The notes beneath the pieces are model-generated. The model had not been told where the DNA came from. It made no database searches and saw only the letters and a list, made by a program, of their open reading frames with translations. A program made the position numbers and the translations under genes. Positions 12,638 through 32,878 of a DNA stretch of 33,951 nucleotides are shown here, piece after piece (the first letter of the stretch is position 1; the number at the start of each line of letters is the position of its first letter). Source of the DNA: Bacteriovoracaceae bacterium (GTDB taxonomy: Bacteria; Bdellovibrionota; Bacteriovoracia; Bacteriovoracales; Bacteriovoracaceae); contig JAGSHI010000029.1 of assembly GCA_023954635.1 (NCBI GenBank), positions 1-33,951 on the forward strand, written 5' to 3'.

Positions 12638-13660
12638 ATGAAAAAACTAATCATTACATTCTTATTCGTATCCTTTATTCAACCTACGTTCTCTCAAGAA
12701 ACTGGACGATTTGACTCAGTTATAAATGAGTACATGAGACGAAAAGAGAGAGTCGAAAAGAAGGCACAAGAAAAACCAAAAGAAGAAACACGTTCTGAAG
12801 ATAGTCCCAAAAGTAATTCGGGTTACGGGCTCGATAAAACTGGCGCTGCTGGAAGTACAGCTGGAGCAGTAGGTAGTGTCGTTCCAAAATCTCCTGGCTT
12901 CGGAGTTTCTTCACCATCCAAAAGCTATTTCAAACTTGGTGTTGAACCTTTCAAGATTACAAGAGTAGATAAAAACCGTAACTACGGACTCGATGCAAAA
13001 TTTAGACTACAAGGTGTTGGACGTTACATATTTGATGGTAAGTTTAATTTTGAGTTAGAAGATCAAAATGATCCATATACGGACGATACAATCACACGTA
13101 GGCATTATCAGGGTGATTTTGCCATTGAGAAAACTAATTTCTTGTGGAACTTGAATCTATTAGTACAAGCAGGATATCAACGTGAAAGGTCTGGACCAGT
13201 TTTTCCAATCTATAGAAGAATGTATGGTGGAGTTATAGGCTTAAAATTTCTCTATGAAAATGAAAGAGATTTTGTGAGAGAGTTTAGTGCTTCTTTCCTT
13301 CCTATTTATGATCGACTAGAATCTGATGCATACGTTGGAAATTCAAATGTATTAGTTCGAAAAAAACGAGAATATATTAGACAATATTTTCAAATAGACT
13401 TTACTCTTGCGCTCTTGAACTACCTTAAGGCCTCGAATCACTTTCATTGGCGTCCAGTTTACGACCTAGATACAAAAAAGTTTAATGCTAACAATGCAGA
13501 AATTGAACAACGTTTTACTTTGACGATGGAGTTAACAAAGACTTTCTCTCTTTCTTGGGAAAATAAGTTAACATGGGATAAAAGAATGCAAGTTGATTTA
13601 AATCGGCCAACTACTGACTTAATCAACTCATTTAAGATGAACTGGAAAGTTGGACTCTGA
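12638..13660 (+). CDS. Outer-membrane beta-barrel protein with charged linker
   Basis: 340 residues. Signal peptide 1-19 (cleavage after TFS). Residues 25-65 are highly charged and probably disordered, followed by a Gly/Ala/Ser stretch (66-95). From about 97 to the end there are regular amphipathic strands with Tyr, Phe and Arg, fitting a 10-14 strand barrel, perhaps of the DUF481 type; the last residues are WKVGL. No Shine-Dalgarno; an extended -10 lies just upstream, so it may be leaderless although it follows the kinase gene by 30 bases. The 3' end runs 33 bases into the end of hoxW on the other strand. Confidence 0.7.
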   Translation: MKKLIITFLFVSFIQPTFSQETGRFDSVINEYMRRKERVEKKAQEKPKEETRSEDSPKSNSGYGLDKTGAAGSTAGAVGSVVPKSPGFGVSSPSKSYFKLGVEPFKITRVDKNRNYGLDAKFRLQGVGRYIFDGKFNFELEDQNDPYTDDTITRRHYQGDFAIEKTNFLWNLNLLVQAGYQRERSGPVFPIYRRMYGGVIGLKFLYENERDFVREFSASFLPIYDRLESDAYVGNSNVLVRKKREYIRQYFQIDFTLALLNYLKASNHFHWRPVYDLDTKKFNANNAEIEQRFTLTMELTKTFSLSWENKLTWDKRMQVDLNRPTTDLINSFKMNWKVGL

Positions 13661-14095
13661 AATAGAACTTTCAAAATCTTGAAGAACAATTTTTGCTTGT
13701 GGAGATAATTCAGATCCCAGAGAAAAATCCTCTCCTGGAAGCTCTGTAATAATCACTTTTACATTTTTCTTATATATCTCAGAGGCCATTGATGCCAATA
13801 AGTCTGGTTCTAAATGATGAACACTAGGATTAAATGTAACAGGAACTGGTTTGAAATCCCTTGTTATCATTGTTCTAGAGTGTGAAGCATCTAAGAACCA
13901 AACCGTATCAAACTCAACCCATTCTAAAACATCTTCAAAATATAATTGATAGTTCTCTTTAAAGGTAAAATTTGGATAGTGAGCTTTCACAATCTCCAAG
14001 GCCATAAGTCCTAGAGCATCGTCAGACCTTGTTTCGTTGCCAACCGCGTGGACAAGAACTCTACCTTTCAATTGTTCTGATAAGATCATTTTCAT
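13628..14095 (-). CDS. hoxW: [NiFe]-hydrogenase maturation endopeptidase
   Basis: 155 residues from the ATG at 14095. An upstream TTG (14110) and a second ATG two codons on are alternatives. HyaD/HycI/HoxW peptidases remove the C-terminal tail of the large subunit once nickel is bound. The family hallmarks are present: GN-x4-DDALG near residues 19-29, FLDAS in the middle and HHLEPD further on, supplying acidic and His ligands for the nickel-sensing site. Length is close to Ralstonia HoxW (about 166). Its start overlaps the end of hoxH by 35 bases, so it is last in the hox operon and co-translated with its own substrate. Its 3' end overlaps the convergent barrel gene by 33 bases. Confidence 0.9.
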   Translation of the reverse strand: MKMILSEQLKGRVLVHAVGNETRSDDALGLMALEIVKAHYPNFTFKENYQLYFEDVLEWVEFDTVWFLDASHSRTMITRDFKPVPVTFNPSVHHLEPDLLASMASEIYKKNVKVIITELPGEDFSLGSELSPQAKIVLQDFESSISESNFPVHLK

Positions 14096-15509
14096 TGTTC
14101 CGTATTTCAATTTTTAATGGCATCTGTCCAATTGCATGAGTTGCACAGCTTAAGCAAGGGTCATAAGCTCTTATCGCAACTTCAATCTCATTTAGAAACT
14201 CTTCGCCTCTTTCTTTATGCTTTGACCAAATATGATGTGCTCGTTGTGTAACTGACTTATTCATCGCTATATTGTTGTGTGTTGTAGATACAATTAGGTT
14301 ACACTTTGTAATTTGATCATCAGGAGCTACTTTGTAGTGATGAATAAGAGTCCCTCTAGGCGCTTCAAGGAAGCCAATTCCTTCTGATTCTCTATTTCCT
14401 TTGGCCATTAAATCGTCTTTAGTAACATCTGGATCATCTAATAATAATTGAATTTTTTCGGCACAATGAAGAATTTCTATTAAACGGGCCCAGTGGTAAA
14501 GTAGCGTACCATGTGGAAACCTACCATTATGGCTTCTAAAATCTTCTAGTTCTTTTTGGGCCAGTGGAGAATCTATATATTCACAAGTATTCAGTCTTGC
14601 GAGTGGTCCAACTCTGACCCATCCATTTTCACGACCCAGATGTTTAAGGAAAGGAAATTTCATATAACTCCATTCCTTTACATCTTCTTGATAGACATCA
14701 AGATATTTTAAATAGTTCATATCATCTAATACTTTTTTACCTGTTGCTGATATACAGCGAAGGTTTCCATGATAAAGCTCTAGTTCTCCGTTTTTACCAA
14801 TTAGTGATAGGTAATTAGATTCTAACTGATCAAAGGAAAGTATTTCGGATTGATTTTTACGATGATAAGTTTTGTAATGGTCTAAAACTTCAGTACACCA
14901 AGATATAACTTCATTTATTGAGGGGATATCACCACCTCGCTTAAACGAGTCAATTTCGTCTGTCGAAAGGCTCTTGTGAACACCACCTGGAACAGCTGAG
15001 ATTCCATGTATTTTTTTACCTGCAGTCGCACGGATGATTTCTTGTCCAAATTTTCTTAAGAGAATACCTTTCTTTGCCAGGTCTTGATTCATCTGTGCAA
15101 GGCCAATAATATTACGAGTTTCAACTTCTGAGTTCATTCCTAACAACAGGTCTGGGGCTGCTAAGTAAAAATAATGAAGAGCATGGCTTTGAAGAACTTG
15201 TCCATAATGCATTAATCTTCTGAGCTTAGCTGCACTTGGAGTGATAGTTTCATCGTTTACACCAACAACTTGATCTATTGCTTTTGCTGCACAAAGATGA
15301 TGACTGACAGGGCATATCCCACAGAGTCTTTGGACCAAGACAGGTGCTTCCCAGTAGGGACGTCCTTGGACAAATTTTTCAAAACCTCTGAACTCTACAA
15401 TATGTAGTTTAGCATCATCCAATTCATCTTTATCATTAAGATGAATTGTTACTCGTCCATGTCCTTCAACTCGAGAGACAGGGTCTATTATAATTTTTTT
15501 CTTAGTCAC
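14061..15509 (-). CDS. hoxH: NAD-reducing [NiFe]-hydrogenase large subunit
   Basis: 482 residues from a GTG start, chosen because the protein then begins like Ralstonia HoxH just before IDPVSRVEGHG. It carries the NiFe(CN)2CO active site where H2 is split or formed. Nickel and iron ligands are visible in RLCGIC (Cys63, Cys66) and DPCLSC (Cys452, Cys455). The maturation site ATH-A places His458 as the last residue of the mature protein, leaving a 24-residue tail, the same length as in Ralstonia. No signal peptide, so cytoplasmic. Motifs FRGFEKFVQGRPYWEAP and EAPRGTL are typical of group 3d. Lies 14 bases after hoxY and overlaps hoxW. Confidence 0.97.
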   Translation of the reverse strand: MTKKKIIIDPVSRVEGHGRVTIHLNDKDELDDAKLHIVEFRGFEKFVQGRPYWEAPVLVQRLCGICPVSHHLCAAKAIDQVVGVNDETITPSAAKLRRLMHYGQVLQSHALHYFYLAAPDLLLGMNSEVETRNIIGLAQMNQDLAKKGILLRKFGQEIIRATAGKKIHGISAVPGGVHKSLSTDEIDSFKRGGDIPSINEVISWCTEVLDHYKTYHRKNQSEILSFDQLESNYLSLIGKNGELELYHGNLRCISATGKKVLDDMNYLKYLDVYQEDVKEWSYMKFPFLKHLGRENGWVRVGPLARLNTCEYIDSPLAQKELEDFRSHNGRFPHGTLLYHWARLIEILHCAEKIQLLLDDPDVTKDDLMAKGNRESEGIGFLEAPRGTLIHHYKVAPDDQITKCNLIVSTTHNNIAMNKSVTQRAHHIWSKHKERGEEFLNEIEVAIRAYDPCLSCATHAIGQMPLKIEIRNNENDLIRTIER

Positions 15510-15523
15510 AGTTATGTCTCATG

Positions 15524-16066
15524 TTAATCATATTTAATTAATCTTTTACTAATTTCTAATTTATCATTTTTGATTAAAGCCGCTAGTGCTTGCCAGATAA
15601 TCTCTCCACTCGGGGGACAACCTGGAAGAAAATAATCAATTTTAACTAATTCATGACAAGGGTAAACCTTATCCAAGAGCTGAGGGAGGTCTTCATGCCT
15701 AGGAATAGTTTGATTATGGTTACTTGTGGGGACGTTAAAGTATGCTTCTTCTAAACATTCTTTTAGAGTTAAATGGTTTCGAAGAGCAGGGAGTCCTCCC
15801 ATAATGGCACATTCTCCTAGAGAAATGAGAATGTCACAATTCTTTCGAAAATCCTTAAGTACTTTTACATTTTCATCATTGCTACATCCTCCCTCAATTA
15901 TTCCAATATCGATTCGTTTAGAGAATGTCTTAATATCTGTTAGGGGAGAACGATTAAATTCGACGAGCTCTATTAGTTCGAGAAGTTTAAGGTCTATGTC
16001 CAAAAAGGACATATGGCAGCCAAAACAGCCAGCAAGACTAATTGTGGAGATTACTTTTTTATCCAT
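15524..16066 (-). CDS. hoxY: NAD-reducing [NiFe]-hydrogenase small subunit
   Basis: 180 residues. It holds the proximal [4Fe-4S] cluster that passes electrons between HoxH and the diaphorase. Ligands are Cys14 and Cys17 (GCFGC), Cys86 (LGEC) and Cys150 (PGCPPSG). It is a short, single-cluster small subunit with no Tat signal and no medial or distal cluster domain, as expected for soluble group 3d enzymes; Ralstonia HoxY is about 209 residues, with the difference in its N-terminal extension. The ATG overlaps the end of hoxU by 16 bases. Only a weak GAG precedes it, so translation probably relies on coupling. Confidence 0.96.
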   Translation of the reverse strand: MDKKVISTISLAGCFGCHMSFLDIDLKLLELIELVEFNRSPLTDIKTFSKRIDIGIIEGGCSNDENVKVLKDFRKNCDILISLGECAIMGGLPALRNHLTLKECLEEAYFNVPTSNHNQTIPRHEDLPQLLDKVYPCHELVKIDYFLPGCPPSGEIIWQALAALIKNDKLEISKRLIKYD

Positions 16067-16749
16067 AGTGGCTCTTTTTCAAATTTTCTTTCTCCATAGG
16101 GTGTTTTAAACCCTTCGCCTTTTACTAAGATTGCACCGACTGGACAGAGGTCCATTGCCTCTTGGGCCTTGTGTTTAGATAAAGACTTTTCTGTTTCCTT
16201 ATTGATAACAACTTGAGTGTCTTTTCCTTTTCCAATAAAGCTAAATACTTTCTCTCCGTCATCATTAGTGAAAAGCTCTGTACACCTTTTACAGTGAACA
16301 CACCGGTTCCTTTCGAGGATAATCATTTCTCCACTGTAATCTATTTCATAGTGATTAAACTCGTATGGAAAACGAGAGTGAGTCATCTCTAATGCTTGGG
16401 CCTCAGCCTGGAGAAGACAGTCTCCCGACTTCTCACAACTTGGGCAATAATGGTTTCCTTCGACAAAGAGTAGTTCTATTATCGATTTCCTTAGATCATT
16501 AAGTTCAGAAGTATCGAACTCTATTTTCATTTCTTCTGTAGTATTAAGAGTGCAGGCCGCAGATGGTCTTCCATTGACATTGACTGTACAAACTCTACAA
16601 GTTCCGAGGCAGTCATCCATACCTTTATACCAACAAAGTGTCGGGACCCTTATTCCTTGAGATGAAAGAGCTTCTACTAGATTAATATTTTTGGGTACAT
16701 CGTACTTTTTACCATCGACTGTGATAGGGATTTTCTTAGGACTACTCAT
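16051..16749 (-). CDS. hoxU: Hydrogenase diaphorase iron-sulfur subunit
   Basis: 232 residues from the ATG at 16749, which overlaps the hoxF stop as ATGAGTAG; a start at 16791 would add 14 unlike residues. It resembles the N-terminal part of complex I NuoG and wires HoxF to HoxY. An N-terminal plant-ferredoxin domain binds [2Fe-2S] (Cys39, Cys51, Cys54, Cys66). The His-Cys3 cluster motif follows (His100, Cys102, Cys105, Cys111), then a [4Fe-4S] set (Cys150, Cys153, Cys156 and Cys202 in LCPVGA). All expected ligands are present. Length matches Ralstonia HoxU (about 234). Confidence 0.95.
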   Translation of the reverse strand: MSSPKKIPITVDGKKYDVPKNINLVEALSSQGIRVPTLCWYKGMDDCLGTCRVCTVNVNGRPSAACTLNTTEEMKIEFDTSELNDLRKSIIELLFVEGNHYCPSCEKSGDCLLQAEAQALEMTHSRFPYEFNHYEIDYSGEMIILERNRCVHCKRCTELFTNDDGEKVFSFIGKGKDTQVVINKETEKSLSKHKAQEAMDLCPVGAILVKGEGFKTPYGERKFEKEPLWIKK

Positions 16750-18499
16750 TGTGGAACTCTTTGTATTCAGCCGTTGCTTGTTCAATGTCAAAGTCTAAAA
16801 AGTTTTCATCTTTATTTGTAATAGCATTCTCAAAATATTCAGGCATGGACTTAAGAGATGTTAAAAGTGGGTTCGGGGAAGTCATTCCAAGTCCGCACCG
16901 ACTTGTTTTAGAAACAATATTACCCCAGTCTTTTATTTTGTTAAGGTCTGAAGGTCTTGCTTTTCCAGTCTTTACCTTTGTCAATAGGTCTCTCAGAATT
17001 ACATTTCCAGCTCTACAAGGCGTACAATTTCCACACGATTCATCGACAAAGAAATCCATAAAATTACTTAATATGTCGAATAGACTTCTCTTTTTGGAAA
17101 ACACCATAAATGAACCACCTGTTGGAAGATCATCATGAGATATTTTTCTGTCAAACTCTTTGTTTGAAATCATAGTCCCTGAAGGACCACCAACTTGGAC
17201 AAATGTAGGTTCAATAGCTTTACAATCTCTCAAGATTTCACTGATTGAAACTCCCCATTCATATTCATAAATACCCGGCTTTTCTACATCCCCACTAATT
17301 GAAAGAAGTCGAATTCCTCTAGAAGACTCTGTCCCTAAGCTTGAAAAAGACTCATGTCCGAATCTTATTATTTGTGCGGCCAAGACAAATGTTTCTACAT
17401 TATTAACAACTGTGGGACATCCAAAAAGACCTTGTTCTACAGGGAAAGGAGGTTTTATTCTTGGTTCACCTCTTTTTCCTTCAAGTGATTCTAATAATGC
17501 AGACTCTTCTCCACAAATATATGCTCCTGCCCCAAGAAAAACTTCAATAGGGAAGGAATTTATAAACCCGCTTTCCTTAAAGTCTAAGATTTGTCTTTCT
17601 ATGTGATTTTTTAAATAAGAATATTCACCTCTTAAGTATATATAGCCTTTACTTGCTCCGACAGCTTTTGAAGCAATGATCATACCTTCAAGGAGCAGTC
17701 CAATAAACTCGGTAAGTAAAACTCTATCTTTAAAAGTGCCAGGTTCACCTTCATCTGCATTACAGACAATGTACTTTTTATCTGAAGGAACTTCTTTGGC
17801 AAGTTTCCATTTTAGACCTGTGGGAAATCCTGCACCACCTCTACCTTTGAGACCTGAATCTGATATTACTTGAATAATGTTTTCTGGGCTCATCTGAGAT
17901 GCAATTGAAATGGCCTCGCCTTTAGACCATTTCTTAAAAAGAAAATGCCCTTTTTTTACAATATTATTATTTATATTTGATTGAATATAATTTGAAGAGT
18001 TTGCGCCATCTCCTAAACCTAAAGACAATATTATTTCTTCAAGTTTTATTCCGTTTTTTAATGAATTTAAAATTATTTTTACTTTTTCTACGGTTAAGGA
18101 AGGAACAGGGATGAAGTCGATTAAAACAGCGGGTGACTGATCACTCATACCTATACATGATGTTTCAAATAATCCAAATGTTCCACAAGGTGTCACTGAT
18201 CCAGTATTTATTTTTAATTCATTTTCAAACGTAGTTTTTATCTGATTTCTATCATGAAAATCAGCAATGATTGAAGAATCAATATAGATTTGATGTTTTC
18301 CTCGATATTCTTCACTGAAGAAATGATAAAAACTAACGACCTCTTGTATTTCCGCAGGTGAAAGGTTTAATTTTTTTGAAAGATCGGTTTGAGTATCGAG
18401 AGAGATACAACCTATATCTTTTTGGATTTCCCATAGGATTGGTATAAGGCGATCTTGAGAGTTACCCTCTTTTTGAATGATTAAATCAAGTTTGTGCAT
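16742..18499 (-). CDS. hoxF: Hydrogenase diaphorase subunit with fused HoxE-like domain
   Basis: 585 residues, close to Ralstonia HoxF (about 602). Residues 1-160 are a HoxE/NuoE-like domain; 200-585 are the NuoF-like part that binds FMN and NAD(H) and reduces NAD+. Visible motifs are GRGGAGFPTGLKW (219-231), CNADEGEPGTFKDR (246-259) and GAGAYICGEE (323-332). The [4Fe-4S] ligands are SCGNCTPC (Cys489, Cys492, Cys495) and Cys535. In the HoxE-like domain only two of four possible [2Fe-2S] ligands remain (Cys105, Cys115; Asp74 occupies the region of the first pair), so it is probably structural. First gene of the hox operon, divergent from hypF with 56 bases between. A weak AAGG precedes the start. 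Confidence 0.96.
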   Translation of the reverse strand: MHKLDLIIQKEGNSQDRLIPILWEIQKDIGCISLDTQTDLSKKLNLSPAEIQEVVSFYHFFSEEYRGKHQIYIDSSIIADFHDRNQIKTTFENELKINTGSVTPCGTFGLFETSCIGMSDQSPAVLIDFIPVPSLTVEKVKIILNSLKNGIKLEEIILSLGLGDGANSSNYIQSNINNNIVKKGHFLFKKWSKGEAISIASQMSPENIIQVISDSGLKGRGGAGFPTGLKWKLAKEVPSDKKYIVCNADEGEPGTFKDRVLLTEFIGLLLEGMIIASKAVGASKGYIYLRGEYSYLKNHIERQILDFKESGFINSFPIEVFLGAGAYICGEESALLESLEGKRGEPRIKPPFPVEQGLFGCPTVVNNVETFVLAAQIIRFGHESFSSLGTESSRGIRLLSISGDVEKPGIYEYEWGVSISEILRDCKAIEPTFVQVGGPSGTMISNKEFDRKISHDDLPTGGSFMVFSKKRSLFDILSNFMDFFVDESCGNCTPCRAGNVILRDLLTKVKTGKARPSDLNKIKDWGNIVSKTSRCGLGMTSPNPLLTSLKSMPEYFENAITNKDENFLDFDIEQATAEYKEFHNE

Positions 18500-18555
18500 T
18501 GCCTTAAAGCCTATTTCCTTTACGTCTCTATTTTCAAAATTATAGGATATTTGAG
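18500..18555. promoter_or_regulatory. 56-bp divergent promoter region between hoxF and hypF
   Basis: This is the only non-coding DNA in the hydrogenase locus. Both operons must be driven from it or from inside the neighbouring start regions. On the minus strand a TATAAT (18542-18537) could be the hoxF -10; its -35 would fall in the first codons of hypF (TACTTT), a poor match. On the plus strand ATTATAGG offers only a vague -10 for hypF. No clear -24/-12 (sigma-54) element or palindrome was seen. Confidence 0.4.
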
Positions 18556-20697
18556 ATGAAAAGTACTAATGTAATGCACTGCTTGAACATAAAGCTAAAA
18601 GGTCTGGTCCAAGGAGTTGGAATGAGACCTGCTTTATATCGACAGGCCCAAAAGTTTAACTTGATAGGTTCAATCGAGAATAATCATATCGGAAGTGAAC
18701 TAGAGTTATTTGGTGAGAAAGAAATTCTTAATTCCTTTTTGAAAGATCTTGAAAAGTGTTTCCCAAAGTCTTCACATGTTACAGAGAAAATTATTACTTG
18801 GAGTAGTAAGGAGTGTCTACACTCGGAGCTTCAGTTTAAAAAGTCTACAAGTAAAAAAGAAGCAAAAGAATATTCAATACCTGTAGACTTATCGACATGT
18901 AAAAAATGTTGGAGTGAATTTAAGGATCCTGGTAATAGAAGATACCTTTATCCATTTATTACTTGTTGTGATTGCGGTCCTAGGTGGAGTATTTTGAAAG
19001 ACCTTCCTTTTGAAAGAAATGATACAAGTATGGTCTCATTTCCGATGTGTTCACAATGTAAAAACGAATATGAAAACCCTAATGATCGTCGTTTTTTTGC
19101 TCAAACAATAAGCTGTAACGATTGTGGGCCCAAAGCTAGTATGAATTTTAAGCAAGTACAGGAGTTATTACTTTCAGGGAAAGTTGGAGCAATTAAGAGC
19201 ATAGGCGGATATGCTTTAATTTGTGATGCTACAAATAAAATGGCAATCGAGAGAGTCAGAAAAATAAAGAATAGACCATCAAAGCCACTAGGAATAATGA
19301 CTAGAGATAAAAAGTCCTTTAACTCTCTTTCAACGAGTGGAGTAGAATGGGAAGATTTAAATACACCAGCTTCACCAATGATAATTTCTAAATACAATAA
19401 CACCTTGGCCACTCAACATTCATTAGCTCCATATAATCAAAACATTGGAGTTATGGCACCACCATCACCCTTTCATTATTTATTATTTGGAGAACTTAAT
19501 CATCTCGTTTTCACCTCTGCCAATAGATCAAATTTTCCCCTCATATATGAAAATAATAAGTTAGAAGAACAATTAAATGCAGACCTAGACTTTATCCTTG
19601 ATCATAGTCGTACAATTGAGCGGCCAATAGATGATTCAGTACTTTCTACCTCTGGCTCAATCATACGAAAGGCGAGAGGTCTTGCTCCTCAAGTCTATAA
19701 GGTTAAAAACTATCAAGATGAAAATGTGATAATAGCGAGTGGGTCAGATCTAAAATCTTCTTTTGCAATACTTAATGGAGAAAATATTTTTCAATCCTCA
19801 TTCTTAGGCGACCTAGAGAATGCGAAAACTTTAGAAAGATATGAAAAAGAAATTGATAAAACATTAGATTTGTTAAATTTAACTTCTGAAAAAAGTTTAT
19901 GTGATAAGCATCCAAAATGGCTTTCGAGGAACTATGCTTTAAGTTATAAAGAATGCATCGAAATACAACACCATAAAGCACACTCAATGGCCGCCGCTTT
20001 TGAGCATTCAGAATCGAATTGTTATATCTTTGCATGTGATGGGACAGGATTTGGAGATGATGGGAATATTTGGGGAGGAGAATGCTTTCATTATAAAAAT
20101 GGAAACTTAAATAGGGTTGCATCTTTCGAAAAATTTAATGTTCCAGCTGGAAGTGTCGGACATAGATCTCCTCGAATCCTTTTCGATATGATGATGAACT
20201 ATAAGGTAGATGGACTTAAAACAAATTCAGTCGGGAGATGGTTTGATGCAATGGCCTGGTATTGCTTCCCTGATCAATTAGAGTCTCTATCGTATGAAGC
20301 ACAAGCACCTGAGTTTTTAGAGTCGAAATCCGTTGAAGCTACTACATCGTGGCCTACTCTTGTATTTAATGAAGATAATGATGGCAAACTCATAATTCCA
20401 TTATTGGAAATATCTGACTTAATTATTAAGAGTGATTATCCTCCTGAGAATAAGGCATGGCTTTTTCATGATGGATTGGCAGAAGTAATAATTCAATACT
20501 TAGATCATATAGCATGTGATGAGCATATTATTTTTACAGGAGGCGTCTTTCACAATGCACTCCTAACCGAACGATTAAAAAGTAAGAATGAGTTTAGAAA
20601 TTTTAATTTACTTTTTCCTGAGGGCATTCCTTGTGGAGATTCTCACATCTCGTTAGGGCAAATTTTATACTTCCTCAAAGGAGGTCGCGATGCATGA
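18556..20697 (+). CDS. hypF: Carbamoyltransferase for hydrogenase cyanide ligands
   Basis: 713 residues (E. coli HypF is about 750). It converts carbamoyl phosphate to carbamoyl-AMP and transfers the carbamoyl group to the C-terminal Cys of HypE. Domains in order: acylphosphatase (about 9-95, motif VQGVGMRP with Arg24); two zinc fingers (CKKC...CCDC and CSQC...CNDC, about 114-190); YrdC-like carbamoyl-adenylate domain (about 195-375, with KSIGGYALICDA and KxRxxKPLG-type residues); and a Kae1-like domain with metal-binding HHKAH, CDGTGFGDDG and GGVFHNALL. All hallmarks are intact. It opens the hyp operon and its end overlaps hypA by 8 bases. A second Met at residue 7 is an alternative start. 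Confidence 0.97.
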   Translation: MKSTNVMHCLNIKLKGLVQGVGMRPALYRQAQKFNLIGSIENNHIGSELELFGEKEILNSFLKDLEKCFPKSSHVTEKIITWSSKECLHSELQFKKSTSKKEAKEYSIPVDLSTCKKCWSEFKDPGNRRYLYPFITCCDCGPRWSILKDLPFERNDTSMVSFPMCSQCKNEYENPNDRRFFAQTISCNDCGPKASMNFKQVQELLLSGKVGAIKSIGGYALICDATNKMAIERVRKIKNRPSKPLGIMTRDKKSFNSLSTSGVEWEDLNTPASPMIISKYNNTLATQHSLAPYNQNIGVMAPPSPFHYLLFGELNHLVFTSANRSNFPLIYENNKLEEQLNADLDFILDHSRTIERPIDDSVLSTSGSIIRKARGLAPQVYKVKNYQDENVIIASGSDLKSSFAILNGENIFQSSFLGDLENAKTLERYEKEIDKTLDLLNLTSEKSLCDKHPKWLSRNYALSYKECIEIQHHKAHSMAAAFEHSESNCYIFACDGTGFGDDGNIWGGECFHYKNGNLNRVASFEKFNVPAGSVGHRSPRILFDMMMNYKVDGLKTNSVGRWFDAMAWYCFPDQLESLSYEAQAPEFLESKSVEATTSWPTLVFNEDNDGKLIIPLLEISDLIIKSDYPPENKAWLFHDGLAEVIIQYLDHIACDEHIIFTGGVFHNALLTERLKSKNEFRNFNLLFPEGIPCGDSHISLGQILYFLKGGRDA
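20677..20685 (+). promoter_or_regulatory. Near-perfect Shine-Dalgarno AAAGGAGGT for hypA
   Basis: The sequence matches the 16S anti-Shine-Dalgarno almost fully and lies 4 bases before the hypA ATG, inside the last codons of hypF. It is much stronger than the sites in front of the other hyp and hox genes, so HypA may be made in greater amount than HypF from the same mRNA. Confidence 0.7.
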
Positions 20698-21034
20698 GCT
20701 TTCATTGGCCATAGAGCTCGTTGATCTCTGTGAAAAAGAAATTAACTTAAATGACAAAGTTTACTCTGTAGAACTTGAAATAGGACCCTTTAGTGGTGTC
20801 GATAAAAGAGCATTTCAGTTTGCTTGGTCTGAGGCAACTAAAGATAGCCTTCTTTTTGAAAGTAACCTTGTCATTAATGATACAAGAGGACTCTTGTCAT
20901 GTAACTCATGTCACATACGATTTGAATCTCCTGACCTGATAACAATTTGTCCAAGTTGTGACTCTGTAGGTTTTGAAATTATTAAAGGACGTGAATTTAA
21001 AGTATTAACATTGGAGATTATAGATGTGCCTTGA
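20690..21034 (+). CDS. hypA: Hydrogenase nickel-incorporation metallochaperone
   Basis: 114 residues, the normal family length. HypA delivers nickel to the apo-large subunit together with HypB. The N-terminal Met-His-Glu (residues 1-3), the nickel site, is present. The zinc site is the pair CNSC (Cys71, Cys74) and CPSC (Cys87, Cys90). Its ATG overlaps the hypF stop by 8 bases and its stop overlaps hypB by 11 bases. No oddities. Confidence 0.97.
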   Translation: MHELSLAIELVDLCEKEINLNDKVYSVELEIGPFSGVDKRAFQFAWSEATKDSLLFESNLVINDTRGLLSCNSCHIRFESPDLITICPSCDSVGFEIIKGREFKVLTLEIIDVP

Positions 21035-21764
21035 TTGTGGATGTGAAAATGCAAACTTGTTAACTGTTAAAGGAAGAGTCTCAAGCCTGCAAGAGATTAA
21101 CTTGAAAGATATCAAACCGCTTACTAAAAAGATGAAAATTGGTAAGGATATTCTGTCTAAAAATAATAAATACGCTGAAAAAAATAGAAAACAATTCAAT
21201 TCAGCAGGTGTTTCAGTAGTTAACTTTATGAGTAGCCCTGGAGCAGGAAAAACTTCTTTGTTATGTGCACTGAAAGAGTTTTTACCTAGAGATATTGACT
21301 TAAAAGTTGTAGTAGGTGATTTAGAAACTGAGATAGATGCAACAAGACTTAAAAAGCATTATGATAATGTTGAACAAATAAATACAATATCGAGCTGCCA
21401 TTTAGATGCAGAAATGTTGACTGATAAAACTATTGATATGAAAGGCGCAGGCCTTTTATTAATTGAAAATATTGGAAACTTAGTTTGTCCTGCTTCATTT
21501 GACCTAGGTGAACATAAGAAAGTTGCTCTCATTTCATTAACTGAAGGGGAAGAGAAGCCTTTAAAATACCCTCTGTTATTTAAGGATTGTAATCTTGTAG
21601 TTATAACAAAAACTGATCTTAAACCTCACTTGAGCATTAATATTGAATTACTAATATCAAATATTCGAAAGGTTAACTCAGAAGTAAAAATAATTATGAC
21701 TAACACAAAGACATTAGAGGGTCTAAAAGACCTTTCAAAGTGGTTAATAGAGAGCAAACATTAA
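21024..21764 (+). CDS. hypB: Hydrogenase nickel-incorporation GTPase
   Basis: 246 residues. SIMIBI-class GTPase that drives nickel release to the large subunit. The N-terminal MCLDCGC holds the high-affinity nickel site of the CXXCGC type. The P-loop is SSPGAGKTS (about 70-78), and the dimer-interface metal site CH lies at Cys125-His126 followed by LDAE. The base-recognition motif is TKTD instead of NKxD. There is no His-rich nickel-storage stretch after the N-terminal motif, unlike HypB of some rhizobia. Overlaps hypA by 11 bases and hypC by one base (TAATG). Confidence 0.97.
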   Translation: MCLDCGCENANLLTVKGRVSSLQEINLKDIKPLTKKMKIGKDILSKNNKYAEKNRKQFNSAGVSVVNFMSSPGAGKTSLLCALKEFLPRDIDLKVVVGDLETEIDATRLKKHYDNVEQINTISSCHLDAEMLTDKTIDMKGAGLLLIENIGNLVCPASFDLGEHKKVALISLTEGEEKPLKYPLLFKDCNLVVITKTDLKPHLSINIELLISNIRKVNSEVKIIMTNTKTLEGLKDLSKWLIESKH

Positions 21765-21982
21765 TGTGTTTAGCTATCCCATCTCAGATTATTGAATTAA
21801 ATGGCGATTTTGCAAAAGTAACTTTGCAAGAAAGTTGTTTTCAGGTTGATATCTCTTTCTTAGATAATCCTCAAATTGGAGATTGGGTCATTGTTCATGC
21901 CGGAGTTGCATTATCAATAGTCGATGAATCAGAGTTGAAAGAAATTCAACAGTTAGTCGAAGAGAGTTTAGATGAACTTTGA
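21764..21982 (+). CDS. hypC: Hydrogenase assembly chaperone HypC/HupF family
   Basis: 72 residues starting MCLAIP, the invariant N-terminus whose Cys2 becomes the terminal ligand after Met removal. An in-frame GTG eight codons upstream is rejected for this reason. HypC carries the Fe(CN)2CO unit with HypD and holds the large-subunit precursor open. The OB-like core motif GDWVIVHAGVALS is intact. Its ATG shares one base with the hypB stop and its end overlaps hypD by 11 bases. Confidence 0.96.
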   Translation: MCLAIPSQIIELNGDFAKVTLQESCFQVDISFLDNPQIGDWVIVHAGVALSIVDESELKEIQQLVEESLDEL

Positions 21983-23078
21983 GGTGCATAGGCAAGCCGA
22001 ATCAAACCCAAAACTTATTAAAGTCAAAATTGATGAGTTAGCTAATCTTTGTACAAACAAACGCTATCGAATTATGGAGTTTTGTGGTGGTCATACACAC
22101 TCTTTTTTTCGGTCAGGTTTAGCTGGAATGGTCAAACCCTTTATTGACTTAGTTCATGGTCCAGGTTGTCCCGTATGTGTATTACCTCCTGGTCGTGTAG
22201 GAATGTTGCTCGACTTAATAGAAAATCGAGACGATGTAATTGTGGCCACATATGCAGACATGATGAGAATTCAAACTCTTGAAGGGCGATCTCTTCTTAA
22301 AAGTGGAAAAAGAGCGATCATGGTATATTCGGCGTTAGATGTCATAAACATAGCTGAAAAAAATCCTGATAAAGAAATCGTATTTGCTGCCATTGGTTTT
22401 GAAACAACAACACCTCCTACGGCATTATTACTGGATAAAATTGTAAAAAATAAAATACAAAATATTACTATTTTTTGTAATCACGTTCTAACTTCTCCTG
22501 CTATCTATGGTGTAATGGATCTTCTTGATGAAGAAACGTCCCCGGATGGAATAATTGGACCAGGCCATGTAAGTATGGTTTTAGGTAGCAAAGCCTATGA
22601 TGTCGTATCTCAAAAAATTCAACGTCCTATTGTTATCAGTGGATTTGAACCACTAGATTTAATTGATTCTTTGATTGAGCTCGTTAAACAGATCCGGAAA
22701 AATAAAAATGATGTTTCAAACCTTTATTCCCATGTTGTAAAGCCCCTAGGAAACGAAAAAGCTCAGAAACTAATAAGTAAGTATTTTGAGGTAAGGCCAA
22801 GTTTTGAATGGCGTGGGGTAGGAAGTCTCAAAGAAAGTGCCCTTCAAATTAAGGGAGAGTATAGTGCATATGATTGTGAGAAAAAATTCAATCTGAAAGA
22901 TACTCACTTGAACGAACATCCACAATGCAAATGTCCTATGATTTTATTAGGAAAATCTTCTCCTTTGGACTGTAAACTTTTTGATAAAGCCTGTACTCCT
23001 TCTACGCCTTTAGGCTCATGTATGGTTTCATCTGAAGGGGCTTGTAATGCTTATTATAATTATGGAGTCGAGAAATGA
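21972..23078 (+). CDS. hypD: Hydrogenase Fe(CN)2CO assembly scaffold
   Basis: 368 residues, typical length. HypD is the [4Fe-4S] scaffold on which cyanide and CO are attached to iron with HypC and HypE. Conserved motifs: FCGGHTH (Cys38), GPGCPVCVLP (Cys66, Cys69) in the thiol-redox centre, CNHVLTSPAI, GFEPLDL, and a C-terminal set of cysteines (CKCP, DCKLF, KACTPSTPLGSC, EGAC) that binds the cluster. All are present. It overlaps hypC by 11 bases and hypE by four (ATGA). Confidence 0.97.
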   Translation: MNFEVHRQAESNPKLIKVKIDELANLCTNKRYRIMEFCGGHTHSFFRSGLAGMVKPFIDLVHGPGCPVCVLPPGRVGMLLDLIENRDDVIVATYADMMRIQTLEGRSLLKSGKRAIMVYSALDVINIAEKNPDKEIVFAAIGFETTTPPTALLLDKIVKNKIQNITIFCNHVLTSPAIYGVMDLLDEETSPDGIIGPGHVSMVLGSKAYDVVSQKIQRPIVISGFEPLDLIDSLIELVKQIRKNKNDVSNLYSHVVKPLGNEKAQKLISKYFEVRPSFEWRGVGSLKESALQIKGEYSAYDCEKKFNLKDTHLNEHPQCKCPMILLGKSSPLDCKLFDKACTPSTPLGSCMVSSEGACNAYYNYGVEK

Positions 23079-24082
23079 GTAAAGTCATTGAGGCCCGACA
23101 TGGTAATGGTGGGCGAATGACCCATGAGTTAATTTCAAATATGTTCCATCGCATATTACCCATGGCGAATGGTAGTGATAATGACTCTTGCCCTATACAT
23201 ACTTCAACGGATGGTCTCGTTGTAACAACTGATGGCCATGCAATAGACCCCATCATCTTTCCTGGTGGAAATATTGGCAAATTAAGTGTTACAGGAACAA
23301 TTAATGACTTATTGGCCTTAGGTGCAAAACCTTTAGGAATTAGTGCTGGATTTATATTACAAGAAGGTCTTCCTCTAGATACACTTGAGACAATACTTCA
23401 ATCCATGGCAAAAGAATTAAAAGATCATGATATGAATTTTTATTCCGGGGATACAAAAGTAATTCAAACGATTGAAGAGCCTGGTCTGTTTATAACTACA
23501 ACGGGGTTTGGGACTAGGATTGGTAGTTCATTGATTGGGCCTAGTTATGTTAAAGCAGGTATGGATATAATATGTACTGGGCCTATTGGATCTCATGGTG
23601 TCACAATTCTAGGGCATCGGAATCAATTTGAGATGACAAGTGAACTACAAAGTGATGTTCAGTCATTGTTTTTCATGATGGCCGATTTGTTTAAAGAGGG
23701 GGACCTCATTTCTTGCTTTCGAGATGCTACACGTGGAGGGATCCTTTCTGTCATGTATGAAATTTGTCAAAATCGATCTCTTCAAGCCGTCTTAAAAGAA
23801 ACTCGTCTTCCAATAGAGAATGGTGTTAAGTCTTCTTGTGATCTTCTAGGACTCGAAATTTTAGAAGTAGCCAATGAGGGAGTAGGAATAATTTTTTGTG
23901 AAAAAAAGAATACTCCTTATATTTTAAAACATTTACATAATTTTAAAGAAGGGCGAAAAGCTGAATGCATAGGGGAGCTCGTAGATGGTTCCGGGCGTGC
24001 AAAAGTTATTCTTGAAACTGCTATCGGAGGTCAAAGAGCTATGGCCTGGACAAACGCAGATAACCTTCCTCGTATTTGTTGA
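23075..24082 (+). CDS. hypE: Hydrogenase thiocarbamate-dehydrating enzyme
   Basis: 335 residues. An AIR-synthase-like ATPase that receives carbamoyl on its C-terminal Cys from HypF and dehydrates it to thiocyanate for transfer to iron on HypC/HypD. It begins with the GNGGRMTHEL loop and carries STDGLVV, GTINDLLALGAKP and FRDATRGGI of the family, and ends with the invariant PRIC (Cys335). Last gene of the hyp run; a 138-base gap with only a weak hairpin (TTTCAC/GTGAAA, 24114-24130) follows, so the operon end is not clearly marked. Confidence 0.97.
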   Translation: MSKVIEARHGNGGRMTHELISNMFHRILPMANGSDNDSCPIHTSTDGLVVTTDGHAIDPIIFPGGNIGKLSVTGTINDLLALGAKPLGISAGFILQEGLPLDTLETILQSMAKELKDHDMNFYSGDTKVIQTIEEPGLFITTTGFGTRIGSSLIGPSYVKAGMDIICTGPIGSHGVTILGHRNQFEMTSELQSDVQSLFFMMADLFKEGDLISCFRDATRGGILSVMYEICQNRSLQAVLKETRLPIENGVKSSCDLLGLEILEVANEGVGIIFCEKKNTPYILKHLHNFKEGRKAECIGELVDGSGRAKVILETAIGGQRAMAWTNADNLPRIC

Positions 24083-30256: not shown

Positions 30257-31177
30257 ATGAAGAGAATTGCGGCCATCGATATAGGCTCAAATGCAATAAG
30301 AGAATGTATAGTCGAAGTTAAAGATAACTTTGAATATAAAGTTATACATAAAAAAAGAACACCTATTCGGTTGGGTGATGAAGCTTTTACTCATGGGGTT
30401 TTGTCAGAAAATACAATCAATGAATGCTTAGATATATTTGAAAAAATGAGAAGCCATTTTGAATCAGAAAATGTTCAGTTGATACGGGCAGTTGCCACAA
30501 GTGCATTAAGAGGCTCTAAAAACTCTAAAGAGTTTGTCAGAAAAATATTTAATAAAACAGGTATCGTTATTAATATTATTGATGGACTTCATGAAGCTAA
30601 GTTAATTTATAAAGCAGTAAAAAAAGAAGTTGATATATGTTCCTCGAAAGCCTTATTGATGGATTTAGGTGGAGGTAGTTTGGAGTTAACAGCTCTTCTT
30701 AATGGAAGAATAGTGAAATGTCATACCTTCAAGTTAGGCGCTCTTCGGTTACAGCATTTGCAGGCATTGTCAGAAGAAAGAATGCTTAACCACATTGAAA
30801 GTAAAAAGAATAAAATTATTGATTTTCTAGAAGATTGTTTTGAAAGTAATTATGATCAACTATTATTAGTTGGTACAGGTGGAAACCCACGTCGAATGGG
30901 AAAACTTAGAAAAAAATTTCTAGGTAAAAGTTCTAGTTGTCATGTACTAGAAGAAGAACTTGAATACTTTCATTCAGAATTTAAAAACTTAGAACCAAGT
31001 AGTAGGGCAGAGAAGTTTGAACTTCGAGCAGATAGGGCGGATGTTATCTTACCTGCAATTGATGTTTTCAAAATGATGATGAAATTAGTTAATGTATCAA
31101 GAATTGAACTTCCAAAGGCCGGATTAATTAATGGTGTGTTTGAAGATGTTTTAGGCCCTGAGGATAATAGAGTTTAG
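30257..31177 (+). CDS. Ppx/GppA phosphatase family protein (single-domain)
   Basis: 306 residues. The ASKHA-fold core matches exopolyphosphatase / pppGpp phosphohydrolase: DIGSNAIR (8-15), RAVATSALR (77-85), HEAKLIY with the likely catalytic Glu113, DLGGGSLEL (136-144) and GTGGNPRRM in domain II. It lacks the C-terminal HD-like domain of E. coli Ppx (513) and GppA, so it is a short form as found in many bacteria and archaea. It would hydrolyse polyphosphate ends or pppGpp; which one cannot be told. Neighbouring divergent phosphatase suggests joint phosphate or alarmone turnover. Confidence 0.88.
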   Translation: MKRIAAIDIGSNAIRECIVEVKDNFEYKVIHKKRTPIRLGDEAFTHGVLSENTINECLDIFEKMRSHFESENVQLIRAVATSALRGSKNSKEFVRKIFNKTGIVINIIDGLHEAKLIYKAVKKEVDICSSKALLMDLGGGSLELTALLNGRIVKCHTFKLGALRLQHLQALSEERMLNHIESKKNKIIDFLEDCFESNYDQLLLVGTGGNPRRMGKLRKKFLGKSSSCHVLEEELEYFHSEFKNLEPSSRAEKFELRADRADVILPAIDVFKMMMKLVNVSRIELPKAGLINGVFEDVLGPEDNRV

Positions 31178-31241
31178 CCTAATAATTGACCCAAGAACTT
31201 GTCACTCTTAGAAAACGTTACTTTACGATATCCTTCCTATC

Positions 31242-31269
31242 TTACTGAAATTATATACCTAAATAATAT
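31242..31269 (+). promoter_or_regulatory. Candidate promoter TTACTG-N16-TAATAT
   Basis: The pair lies 60-90 bases before the ATG of the Arg-rich repeat protein at 31331 and would give a leader of about 55 bases ending in a strong GGAGGG Shine-Dalgarno. The region is AT-rich, so the match is only moderately specific. Confidence 0.35.
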
Positions 31270-31330
31270 TGTTACACTACACTTCATAGCAGACCGATAA
31301 TGAATCGTCTGATTCTTTATGGAGGGTTCT

Positions 31331-32149
31331 ATGAAATTTTTGTTGTCCTTAATTGCTTTGTTTTCAATGTCAATATCATTACCAGTTCTATCTCAAGATG
31401 GACTTCCCTCTATCTCACCTCCAGATAAAATGAGTGATACTGGAAGAGAGAATAGTGAATTTGGAAGAAGTCGAGCAGAAGAAGGTGGAAATGCTTATGG
31501 TCGAGACGATCAAGAGAGCAAAGAAAAGAAAAAAGATGGACGATGGGCCAAACGAAGAGAAAGAAGAAAAGATTTTAGAGATGATCGAAGTGGTGATAAG
31601 CAGGCATACCGAAAAGATAGAAAAGGTGACAGGAAAGACTTTCGCCAAGAGAGGCGTGGAGACAAGAAAGACTTCAGAGGTGAAAATGGTGAAGATCGTC
31701 GAAGTTTTCGTGCTGACTTAAAGGAAAACAATAGAGATTTCCGCTCTGGGAATATGGGCAAAAAAGAGTATAGACAAGCAAATAGAGAGGATCGAAAAGA
31801 TTATAAAAAAGATAGACGATCAGACAAGAAATCATATCGAAATGATCGGCAAGGGGATAGACAAGATTTTCGTAAAGAAAGAAGAGCTGACTCTAAAGGT
31901 TATCGAAAAGAAAGACGCAGTGATAAGAGAAGCTATAGAAATGAAAGATCTAGTGATAGGTCAAATTTCCGTAAAGAAAAGCGGTCTAATTATCAAGCTC
32001 TTGGGAGACGTGATAACTCGAACAATCGACGCAGAGATATGATGAAGAAAAGAAGAAATCAAGGAAGAAGTGCATTTGGACAACGACAAGGACAAAGACG
32101 CAATCGAGCGCCAGCCTCAATTCCGAGAGGTAATTCGAAACGAAGATAG
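31331..32149 (+). CDS. Secreted Arg/Lys/Asp-rich 11-residue repeat protein
   Basis: 272 residues from the ATG at 31331; an ATG four codons upstream is part of the ATGGAGGG Shine-Dalgarno. Residues 1-21 are a signal peptide. After a Ser/Gly/Glu-rich segment (22-65) comes a tandem array of about thirteen 11-residue units (about 75-217), consensus R-x-x-D-[KR]-[KRQ]-x-[FY]-R-x-[DE], with one unit of 10 residues. The tail (218-272) is again very basic, rich in Arg, Asn, Gln and Gly. There are no cysteines. Net charge is strongly positive. The 11-residue period fits hendecad helices or a disordered polyampholyte. No known domain. It could bind nucleic acid, lipopolysaccharide or peptidoglycan outside the cytoplasm; this is inference. 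Confidence 0.8.
   Translation: MKFLLSLIALFSMSISLPVLSQDGLPSISPPDKMSDTGRENSEFGRSRAEEGGNAYGRDDQESKEKKKDGRWAKRRERRKDFRDDRSGDKQAYRKDRKGDRKDFRQERRGDKKDFRGENGEDRRSFRADLKENNRDFRSGNMGKKEYRQANREDRKDYKKDRRSDKKSYRNDRQGDRQDFRKERRADSKGYRKERRSDKRSYRNERSSDRSNFRKEKRSNYQALGRRDNSNNRRRDMMKKRRNQGRSAFGQRQGQRRNRAPASIPRGNSKRR
31553..31981 (+). repeat. Imperfect 33-bp coding tandem repeat (about 13 copies)
   Basis: The DNA behind the 11-residue units repeats every 33 bases, with diverged copies built from AGA, CGA, AAA, GAT and TTT/TAT codons. The divergence at third positions shows the array is old and kept by selection on the protein, not freshly amplified. It also creates long open frames on other frames and strand that are not genes. 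Confidence 0.75.
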
Positions 32150-32278
32150 TTAAAACACTTTAAAAAGAAAATTCAGTTGACCCCAGAAGGTATTTGGAGG
32201 TGTATTGTTAAATACATCAAGCTTTTTGGGGCCATCACGATCTGTCATATTGAAAGTACTAAAAAATTAAATTCAAAG

Positions 32279-32878
32279 CTAATCCAATAAACTAAAACCA
32301 TCAATATAACCATGGCCTTTATTGTTAACTATTTGGAGAAAGACATAATTGGGAGAGTTTTTACTGAGTCTTAAATATTTATTCCATTTGTTTTTGCGAC
32401 ATTTCGTAGAGGTTTGCTGTTGATTTACTTGTATTTTTACATTCCGAGACATTGGAAAACAACGACCACTTATTTTTAGTTCACGGTTATCCTTATTAAA
32501 TTTTCGTTCTGTTATAGTTAGAAATGGGCTTTTCTTTTTGCTTTTGAACTTATCTACTTTTAAGAAAAGTTTAAAATTTTGATCATCAAACTTCACTAGA
32601 GAATCGACGATATTAAAAGACTTGAGCATTTTGGATTTAAGTATATTTCTTGAAAGGAAATAAACGATTTTTTGATTAGTAGATTTACCTTGAATGACAA
32701 AAAAACTGTCTTTTCTAAAAATATTTTTTACATTAATACCGGGATTAATTTTGATTCGATAAAACTGGATAGTGAAATCACCTACAGAAGGGGTCTTTTT
32801 TGAACTTGAGAGAGCAGTATTTGAGCTCAAAAAAATGATGAAAATACAGCATAAAGCCCATATTAATTGGCTCCTCAA
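32279..32878 (-). CDS. Secreted protein with Ig-like Cys-Cys domain
   Basis: 199 residues from a TTG start at 32878. Residues 1-24 form a signal peptide (start may be later). The C-terminal 65 residues follow a pattern I know from secreted Ig-like units: ISGRC...V.I.V...Cys...K.W...L.LS, ending in a G-Y-I-D-G strand, with one Cys pair as disulfide (GRC and TKC). The N-terminal part is beta-rich and basic. Start is uncertain: the only strong Shine-Dalgarno-like sequence, GAGGAG, lies in codons 2-3, after the TTG, and no ATG or GTG follows in frame at the right distance. No partner gene; convergent with the repeat-protein gene. Confidence 0.65.
   Translation of the reverse strand: MRSQLIWALCCIFIIFLSSNTALSSSKKTPSVGDFTIQFYRIKINPGINVKNIFRKDSFFVIQGKSTNQKIVYFLSRNILKSKMLKSFNIVDSLVKFDDQNFKLFLKVDKFKSKKKSPFLTITERKFNKDNRELKISGRCFPMSRNVKIQVNQQQTSTKCRKNKWNKYLRLSKNSPNYVFLQIVNNKGHGYIDGFSLLD

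Follow-up and report, generated by a model that had tools for sequence, protein, structure and literature searches.

The gene at 31331-32149 and its product

The window, the whole stretch of DNA analysed here, comprises 33,951 nucleotides from a Bacteriovoracaceae bacterium (GCA_023954635.1, contig JAGSHI010000029.1). At 31331-32149 on the forward strand it carries an open reading frame encoding a 272-aa product. A strong ribosome-binding site had been proposed in an earlier sequence-only reading, and GGAGGG (31321-31326) indeed lies 4 nt 5' of the ATG at 31331. A second in-frame ATG, at 31319, overlaps this site; since it sits on top of it, 31331 is the better start. The same reading had described the product as a secreted polyampholyte rich in Arg and Lys and free of cysteine. 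Consistent with this, the protein from residue 21 contains 88 Lys and Arg residues, 47 Asp and Glu residues (net charge +41) and no Cys, and a signal peptide was recognised by eye, with cleavage between MKFLLSLIALFSMSISLPVLS and Q. The product does not appear to stay in the cytoplasm, as all family members that we read begin, by eye, in a signal-peptide-like manner. The gene is single-copy within its own genome. The features of the locus are listed below.

30257..31177, +: neighbouring Ppx/GppA phosphatase gene (PF02541, E 1.5e-34); linkage seen in the window's genus only
31321..31326, +: ribosome-binding site GGAGGG, 4 nt before the ATG (sequence)
31331..32149, +: CDS of the 272-aa polyampholyte (ORF)
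31331..31393, +: probable signal peptide, residues 1-21 (by eye; family members read begin alike)
31394..31504, +: N-terminal linker, residues 22-58, low confidence (pLDDT mostly <60)
31505..31744, +: predicted helix 1, residues 59-138 (AlphaFold2 model mc0ea1275f1fc)
31559..31984, +: thirteen 11-residue units, residues 77-218, aromatics 82-213 (sequence)
31745..31759, +: turn S-G-N-M-G, residues 139-143, at the sole 10-residue step (alignment, model)
31760..32068, +: predicted helix 2, residues 144-246 (AlphaFold2 model)
31994..32146, +: basic Asn/Gln/Arg-rich tail, residues 222-272, overlapping the end of predicted helix 2

The basic tail (residues 222-272) is missing from the aligned relatives, of which that of genome G002 ends at a contig end. 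The sequence CCGATA(A or C) occurs 5' of the start codon in four members (window 31294-31300, G002, G046 and G019). Positions 32279-32878 on the reverse strand, after the gene, encode a 199-aa exported-looking protein for which no Pfam family was found at E 0.01, and the region 13628-24082 was read by eye as encoding hydrogenase-like subunits together with HypF-, HypB-, HypD- and HypE-like maturation proteins.

Aromatic residues at positions 82, 93, 104, 115, 126, 137, 147, 158, 169, 180, 191, 202 and 213 define 13 units. The residue after the aromatic is Arg in 12 of the 13 units and Lys in one (158). An acidic position in each unit had also been noted from the sequence, and acidic residues are found at +3 of the aromatic in 11/13 units and at -4 in 10/13. 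The rhythm itself had been called strict, with aromatic-Arg pairs; the 13 units with their aromatic-basic pairs were borne out, but the step from 137 to 147 is one of 10 residues. The count of 11-residue steps was matched in none of 100,000 residue shuffles, and the identity autocorrelation at lag 11 reached z = 6.6 in the window protein and 5.2-8.5 in six relatives. Tandem Repeats Finder did not find a DNA array of the 11-residue units, and the 12 conserved Arg residues are encoded by four codons (AGA, CGA, CGC and CGT). Thus, the rhythm is maintained by selection on the protein, and recent duplication of the DNA does not account for it.

If each unit is wound as three helical turns, the acidic residues come to lie near 230-330 degrees and the basic residues at 33-196 degrees, with the aromatic at 0. 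Each helix would consequently carry an acidic stripe and a basic face with an aromatic seam between them. The aromatic is the sole regularly hydrophobic position, the +3, +4 and -4 offsets being mostly charged. The window protein shares the 11-residue period of hendecad coiled coils, as the lag-11 and shuffle results indicate. In contrast to them, it lacks a hydrophobic core at several positions per unit, since one aromatic per 11 residues does not make up the usual core.

Relatives and a predicted helical hairpin

An initial genome-contig search with the window protein alone gave no match, viral contigs gave no match either, and among plasmids one RcnB protein was matched, outside the hairpin part. 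As the sole query, the window protein matched 7/97 genomes at E<=1e-3 (its own genome counted), and a seven-member profile matched 27/129 family genomes. A reversed-profile control matched 7/129 genomes with a best E of 2e-8, and matches weaker than about 1e-9 were therefore held unproven. With a ten-member profile at E<=1e-9, matches were obtained at 25 places in 24/368 genomes of the phylum, covering 20/181 genera. The named relatives are a Bacteriovoracaceae MAG, Bdellovibrio sp. CG22, Bdellovibrionales RIFOXYC1, a Halobacteriovorax marinus isolate and Sphingomonas sp. ID1715; five further charged-protein records from the same search were not accepted as relatives. A match in another family, from genome G086 (L165), is built of the same units, with ALKNGEMTKEQF as its turn. 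The Sphingomonas protein (L149) is the closest match outside Bdellovibrionota, and in it the hairpin is fused to an RcnB domain (PF11776, E 2.4e-13), which Pfam describes as a nickel/cobalt transporter regulator. Over query residues 31-103, its hairpin shares 63% identity with that of G036, and its turn reads GEVSREQF.

The number of units differs widely among species, and the window's genus has a longer protein, with 13 units and the extra tail. Some relatives are near neutral, with a net charge of +6 or +7 in G036, G019 and G002. One could suppose that this is a low-complexity charged protein without specific function and that the relatives are compositional matches. The weak matches of the reversed profile fit such a view, as do the 7-residue units of many looser matches. 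However, members outside the build set score E 1.6e-28, 9.5e-21 and 2.4e-20 with the forward profile, and the turn, promoter box and synteny described below are conserved. We therefore disfavour this explanation as highly improbable.

Some matches were set aside. We claim no homology for G005 (6.7e-8), even though it has the ECF position described below, nor for other weak matches, including the many with 7-residue units. L008 (1387-1854; the second match in G046) and L029 (1420-2010) were excluded because they are coiled-coil proteins of a cytoplasmic type, unlike the hairpin family. Both have 11-residue units and a C-terminal hydrophobic segment.

The single 10-residue step of the window protein is a conserved turn and not noise. 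In relatives the aromatic phase likewise breaks once, at a shared turn motif, which reads ALKDGEISKREF in the CG22 record, LRSGDLSREEY in the Halobacteriovorax isolate, FQRGEVSREQF in Sphingomonas and FRSGNMGKKEY in the window. Gly is present at the turn in 9/10 aligned sequences, and the alignments A5 and A6 are gapless across it in all six rows. The step there is exactly 10 residues in 6/10 sequences, with other steps in G002, G009 and G054 and one of 11 in G127.

AlphaFold2, run on a six-row alignment, placed helices at residues 38-117 and 123-225 (mature numbering) of the window protein, with a pLDDT of 95-96 by the break and a mean of 78. For the CG22 relative the helices span residues 3-60 and 66-133, with a mean pLDDT of 90.2. 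The window protein is predicted to be a long two-helix hairpin joined by a tight turn, with the caveat that charged repeats tend toward helix in models anyway and that six sequences underlie these models. The pTM values, 0.47 for the window protein and 0.63 for the CG22 relative, make the pairing and packing of the two helices uncertain, so although the models give two helices and a turn as opposed to one uninterrupted helix, the helices could act apart. An amphipathic or hendecad helix had been suggested for this protein; the 11-residue helical rhythm was retained, but the alignment and both models turn the one continuous helix into a hairpin. Single alpha-helices are similarly rich in Arg, Lys and Glu, according to the available excerpt of PMC5347031, but the window protein differs from them in its conserved turn and in having its charges segregated into stripes. 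Foldseek returned no match under E 0.001 against the PDB, and a PDB sequence search returned one match, at E 0.17. VIA-align reached Z values up to 10 on generic helical bundles, which the tool's own note treats as uninformative.

Antiparallel helices packed on their aromatic seams would bring like-charged stripes face to face, and this geometric consideration of ours argues for another packing or for oligomers. The hairpins might even act as a mechanical or filamentous element of the envelope, their complementary acidic and basic stripes pairing to build up fibres or a layer in the periplasm. Segregated stripes with an aromatic seam would suit such an assembly, and so would the variable unit number. 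The models, however, are of monomers, and the linkage to a stress module described below fits a soluble helper equally well; we consider the filament unlikely.

An ECF sigma factor module and its promoter box in relatives

At 4/25 places (G046, G019, G161 and G329, representing four genera), the hairpin gene lies at most one gene away from a module containing an ECF sigma factor gene and a DUF3106 gene. No further ECF genes were found in 270 kb of context around the 25 places, to which some contigs contributed little sequence. In G046 and G019 the hairpin gene is divergent from the ECF sigma gene, which is followed in the module by a small anti-sigma-like gene, a small exported gene, the DUF3106 gene and a barrel-like exported gene. 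The anti-sigma-like gene is named by its position; its product has one hydrophobic segment and no Pfam match. The arrangement differs in G161 and G005: there the module faces a divergent operon, whose second gene encodes a charged exported protein built of 7-residue or irregular units. In G329, a GC-rich genome of another family found by the profile alone, the ECF, anti-sigma and DUF3106 genes diverge from the hairpin gene, the ECF gene being detected by a six-frame scan. In G009 and G054, a different charged exported gene adjoins the ECF module and the hairpin gene is unlinked; in G001, from the window's genus, the module is present and a hairpin match is absent.

The adjoining genes of G009 (L081:6200-6688) and G054 (L082:6239-6694) are divergent from the ECF gene and encode exported basic proteins (SGELTKREA ... 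SKKIFKKKHN). The two proteins are 60% identical, match no Pfam family over cut-off and stand behind the same promoter-box type; no homology of this KHN-type pair to the hairpin was found beyond the signal peptide.

The divergent genes are preceded by G[AC]AACTT, 14-15 bases, and CGTA or a near form of it. The box G[AC]AAC..-N14/15-CGT was found upstream of 7/22 genes or operons, two of them hairpin genes unlinked to the sigma gene, as compared with 0.05 expected in shuffles, and is absent from 15/22 upstream regions. This count is partly post hoc: the expression was loosened after sites had been seen, its seventh position being widened to C as the G329 site needed, and without G329 the count is 6/22, with several of those sites being the motif's own sources. 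The 22 regions correspond to 21/25 profile places (G035, G077, G365 and G364 were left out) plus the operon start of G005, and G161 was entered by its operon's first gene.

Genome-wide, GCAACTT-N14/15-CGTAA occurs at 2 sites in G054, the sigma gene start and the unlinked hairpin gene, and at 4 sites in G009. Two of the G009 sites lie at the sigma gene and at the unlinked hairpin gene; the other two belong to the charged gene next to the sigma gene and to a gene for a 92-aa exported charged protein. GAAACTT-N14/15-CGTAT has 1 site in G019, at the hairpin gene; of its 3 sites in G046, one lies inside another gene and the other two at the sigma gene start and the hairpin gene. Backward-read controls gave 0 to 5 counts per genome and strand, so the numbers of boxes alone are not special; their positions are.

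This arrangement would also suit a protein that senses metal or stress and, as a partner of the anti-sigma factor, controls the ECF response; CnrX/ZraP-like logic provides a model for this. The divergent pairing with the sigma and anti-sigma module and the fusion to RcnB, a nickel/cobalt transporter regulator in Pfam, are both consistent with a sensing role. On the other hand, the mature proteins counted contain no Cys, no conserved His or Met motif was seen, and the module is not nearby at most gene places. We regard a sensing partner as quite improbable.

Upstream of the window gene itself, no ECF box was found in the form counted in 7/22 regions, and a sigma-70-like site was not found on the + strand at 31150-32330; a weak GAACTT-N15-CGTTA 136 bp upstream is not relied on. 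There are no DUF3106 matches in G000, G002, G036, G123 and G035, and G002, G036 and G123 resemble the window in having neither box nor DUF3106. Because the window gene has no box and its genome no DUF3106, its link to stress comes from homology and its regulation is extrapolated from relatives. The hairpin gene of the window's genus must be under other control.

The neighbourhood of the window gene could instead indicate a protein that binds polyphosphate or is otherwise linked to it. In the window's genus the hairpin gene comes after ppx: the Ppx/GppA gene adjoins it in the window and lies near in G002, where ppk1 stands between the two. However, ppk1 is divergent from the hairpin gene in G002, so they do not form one operon. 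A PPK1 match is missing altogether from G000, and G036 and G046 carry ppk1 and ppx together on a contig other than that of the hairpin gene. On these grounds the polyphosphate link was dropped as very unlikely.

A second ECF class was observed in the window's genus (L083:5985-6440 in G000, L085:4750-5199 in G002 and L087:4680-5126 in G001), with the box GAAAC[CT][TA]-N14-CGTA. The gene divergent from this ECF gene encodes a charged, helical, exported protein that also shows an 11-residue rhythm in its C-terminal part; hhalign gave a probability of 54 for this protein against the hairpin.

Known families and a candidate role in envelope stress

No Pfam or NCBIfam family matched the window protein or the relatives scanned at cut-off, in line with the earlier remark that no described family like it was known; with the Pfam threshold relaxed to E 10, the sole match of the window protein was GvpG, at 0.19. 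In the search listings and opening lines of abstracts on hendecads, Bdellovibrio/ECF/Spy, RcnB, DUF3106, Spy/CpxP and charged helices, no paper on the hairpin family was found, and a literature search on DUF3106 returned 0 papers. DUF3106 proteins (PF11304) are exported, charged and repetitive as well, and are encoded in the same ECF modules, but they form a separate sequence family: PF11304 is absent from the window protein and present in the modules' neighbouring gene. Similarly, the RcnB protein of Sphingomonas carries the same hairpin, but PF11776 was not found in the window protein or in the Bdellovibrionota relatives scanned.

A functional parallel is offered by Spy/CpxP, whose members are small, exported and helical, with a basic surface and a tie to envelope stress; the hairpin protein is likewise small, with a basic surface and predicted helices, while its tie to stress comes through relatives and its export was judged by eye. 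LTxxQ is the Spy/CpxP motif. The hairpin protein has no LTxxQ and no Pfam match to the family, and consists instead of 11-residue units with an aromatic seam; ten relatives scanned to E 1 gave no Spy/CpxP (LTXXQ) match. Moreover, Spy is a cradle dimer of four-helix monomers whereas the window protein is a predicted hairpin, and Spy/CpxP are controlled by Bae, Cpx and Rcs whereas hairpin relatives are associated with an ECF module. On sequence grounds, the hairpin protein is not a member of the Spy family.

The sequence-only reading had instead proposed prey-directed targets, such as LPS, DNA released from lysed cells or murein. A secreted polycation acting on prey or debris would agree with the net charge of +41, with export and with the extra basic tail of the window copy, and the lineage does include Bdellovibrio-like organisms and a Halobacteriovorax marinus isolate. 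However, the relatives sit in an ECF envelope module of their own, with anti-sigma and DUF3106 genes, and the proteins of G036, G019 and G002 are near neutral. In addition, the closest outsider is the RcnB fusion protein of Sphingomonas, which to our knowledge is not a predatory genus. These observations argue against prey-directed targets, and we consider the polycation improbable.

Our tentatively favoured reading is that the window protein is exported, most likely to the periplasm, and serves as a helical hairpin in the response to envelope stress, probably as a little-studied envelope-protection protein rather than a weapon. We hypothesize that envelope damage leads an ECF sigma factor to induce the hairpin protein. 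Its basic face would then capture acidic, unfolded or exposed envelope material through long-range electrostatics, while the regularly spaced Phe and Tyr residues would supply a short-range grip. According to the available excerpt of PMC8144458, Spy is a small, strongly induced dimer whose positively charged concave surface captures clients electrostatically before hydrophobic contacts form. By analogy, the hairpin might work without ATP, following the logic of E. coli Spy from a different fold and sequence. The periplasmic place, the induction and the client binding are all inferred. A broader proposal, which we think rather unlikely, is that charge-striped hendecad hairpins are a new class of envelope-stress effector, combining client capture with self-assembly, modular across Bdellovibrionota, fused to RcnB in Alphaproteobacteria and adjusted in size by added 11-residue units.

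In this picture the window protein would be an exported helical protein linked to stress, unusual in its charge-striped 11-residue hairpin. The analysis provides a fold prediction and a regulatory setting for a charged exported family that profile libraries miss. It also raises the testable question of how charge and aromatics, in place of a hydrophobic core, can serve envelope protection in bacteria whose life cycle puts envelopes under stress.

The findings point to an envelope-stress regulon under an ECF factor in Bacteriovoracaceae and their relatives. The strict box marks four targets in G009, the sigma gene itself plus three genes for small, charged exported proteins. Two RpoE-like factors have been studied in B. 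bacteriovorus, and the available excerpt of PMC3464611 calls their downstream genes unique to Bdellovibrio. Look-alike exported charged proteins of 92-99 aa with two Cys are encoded behind ECF-type boxes at L112 (G009) and L127 (G127), and these may be further members of the regulon.
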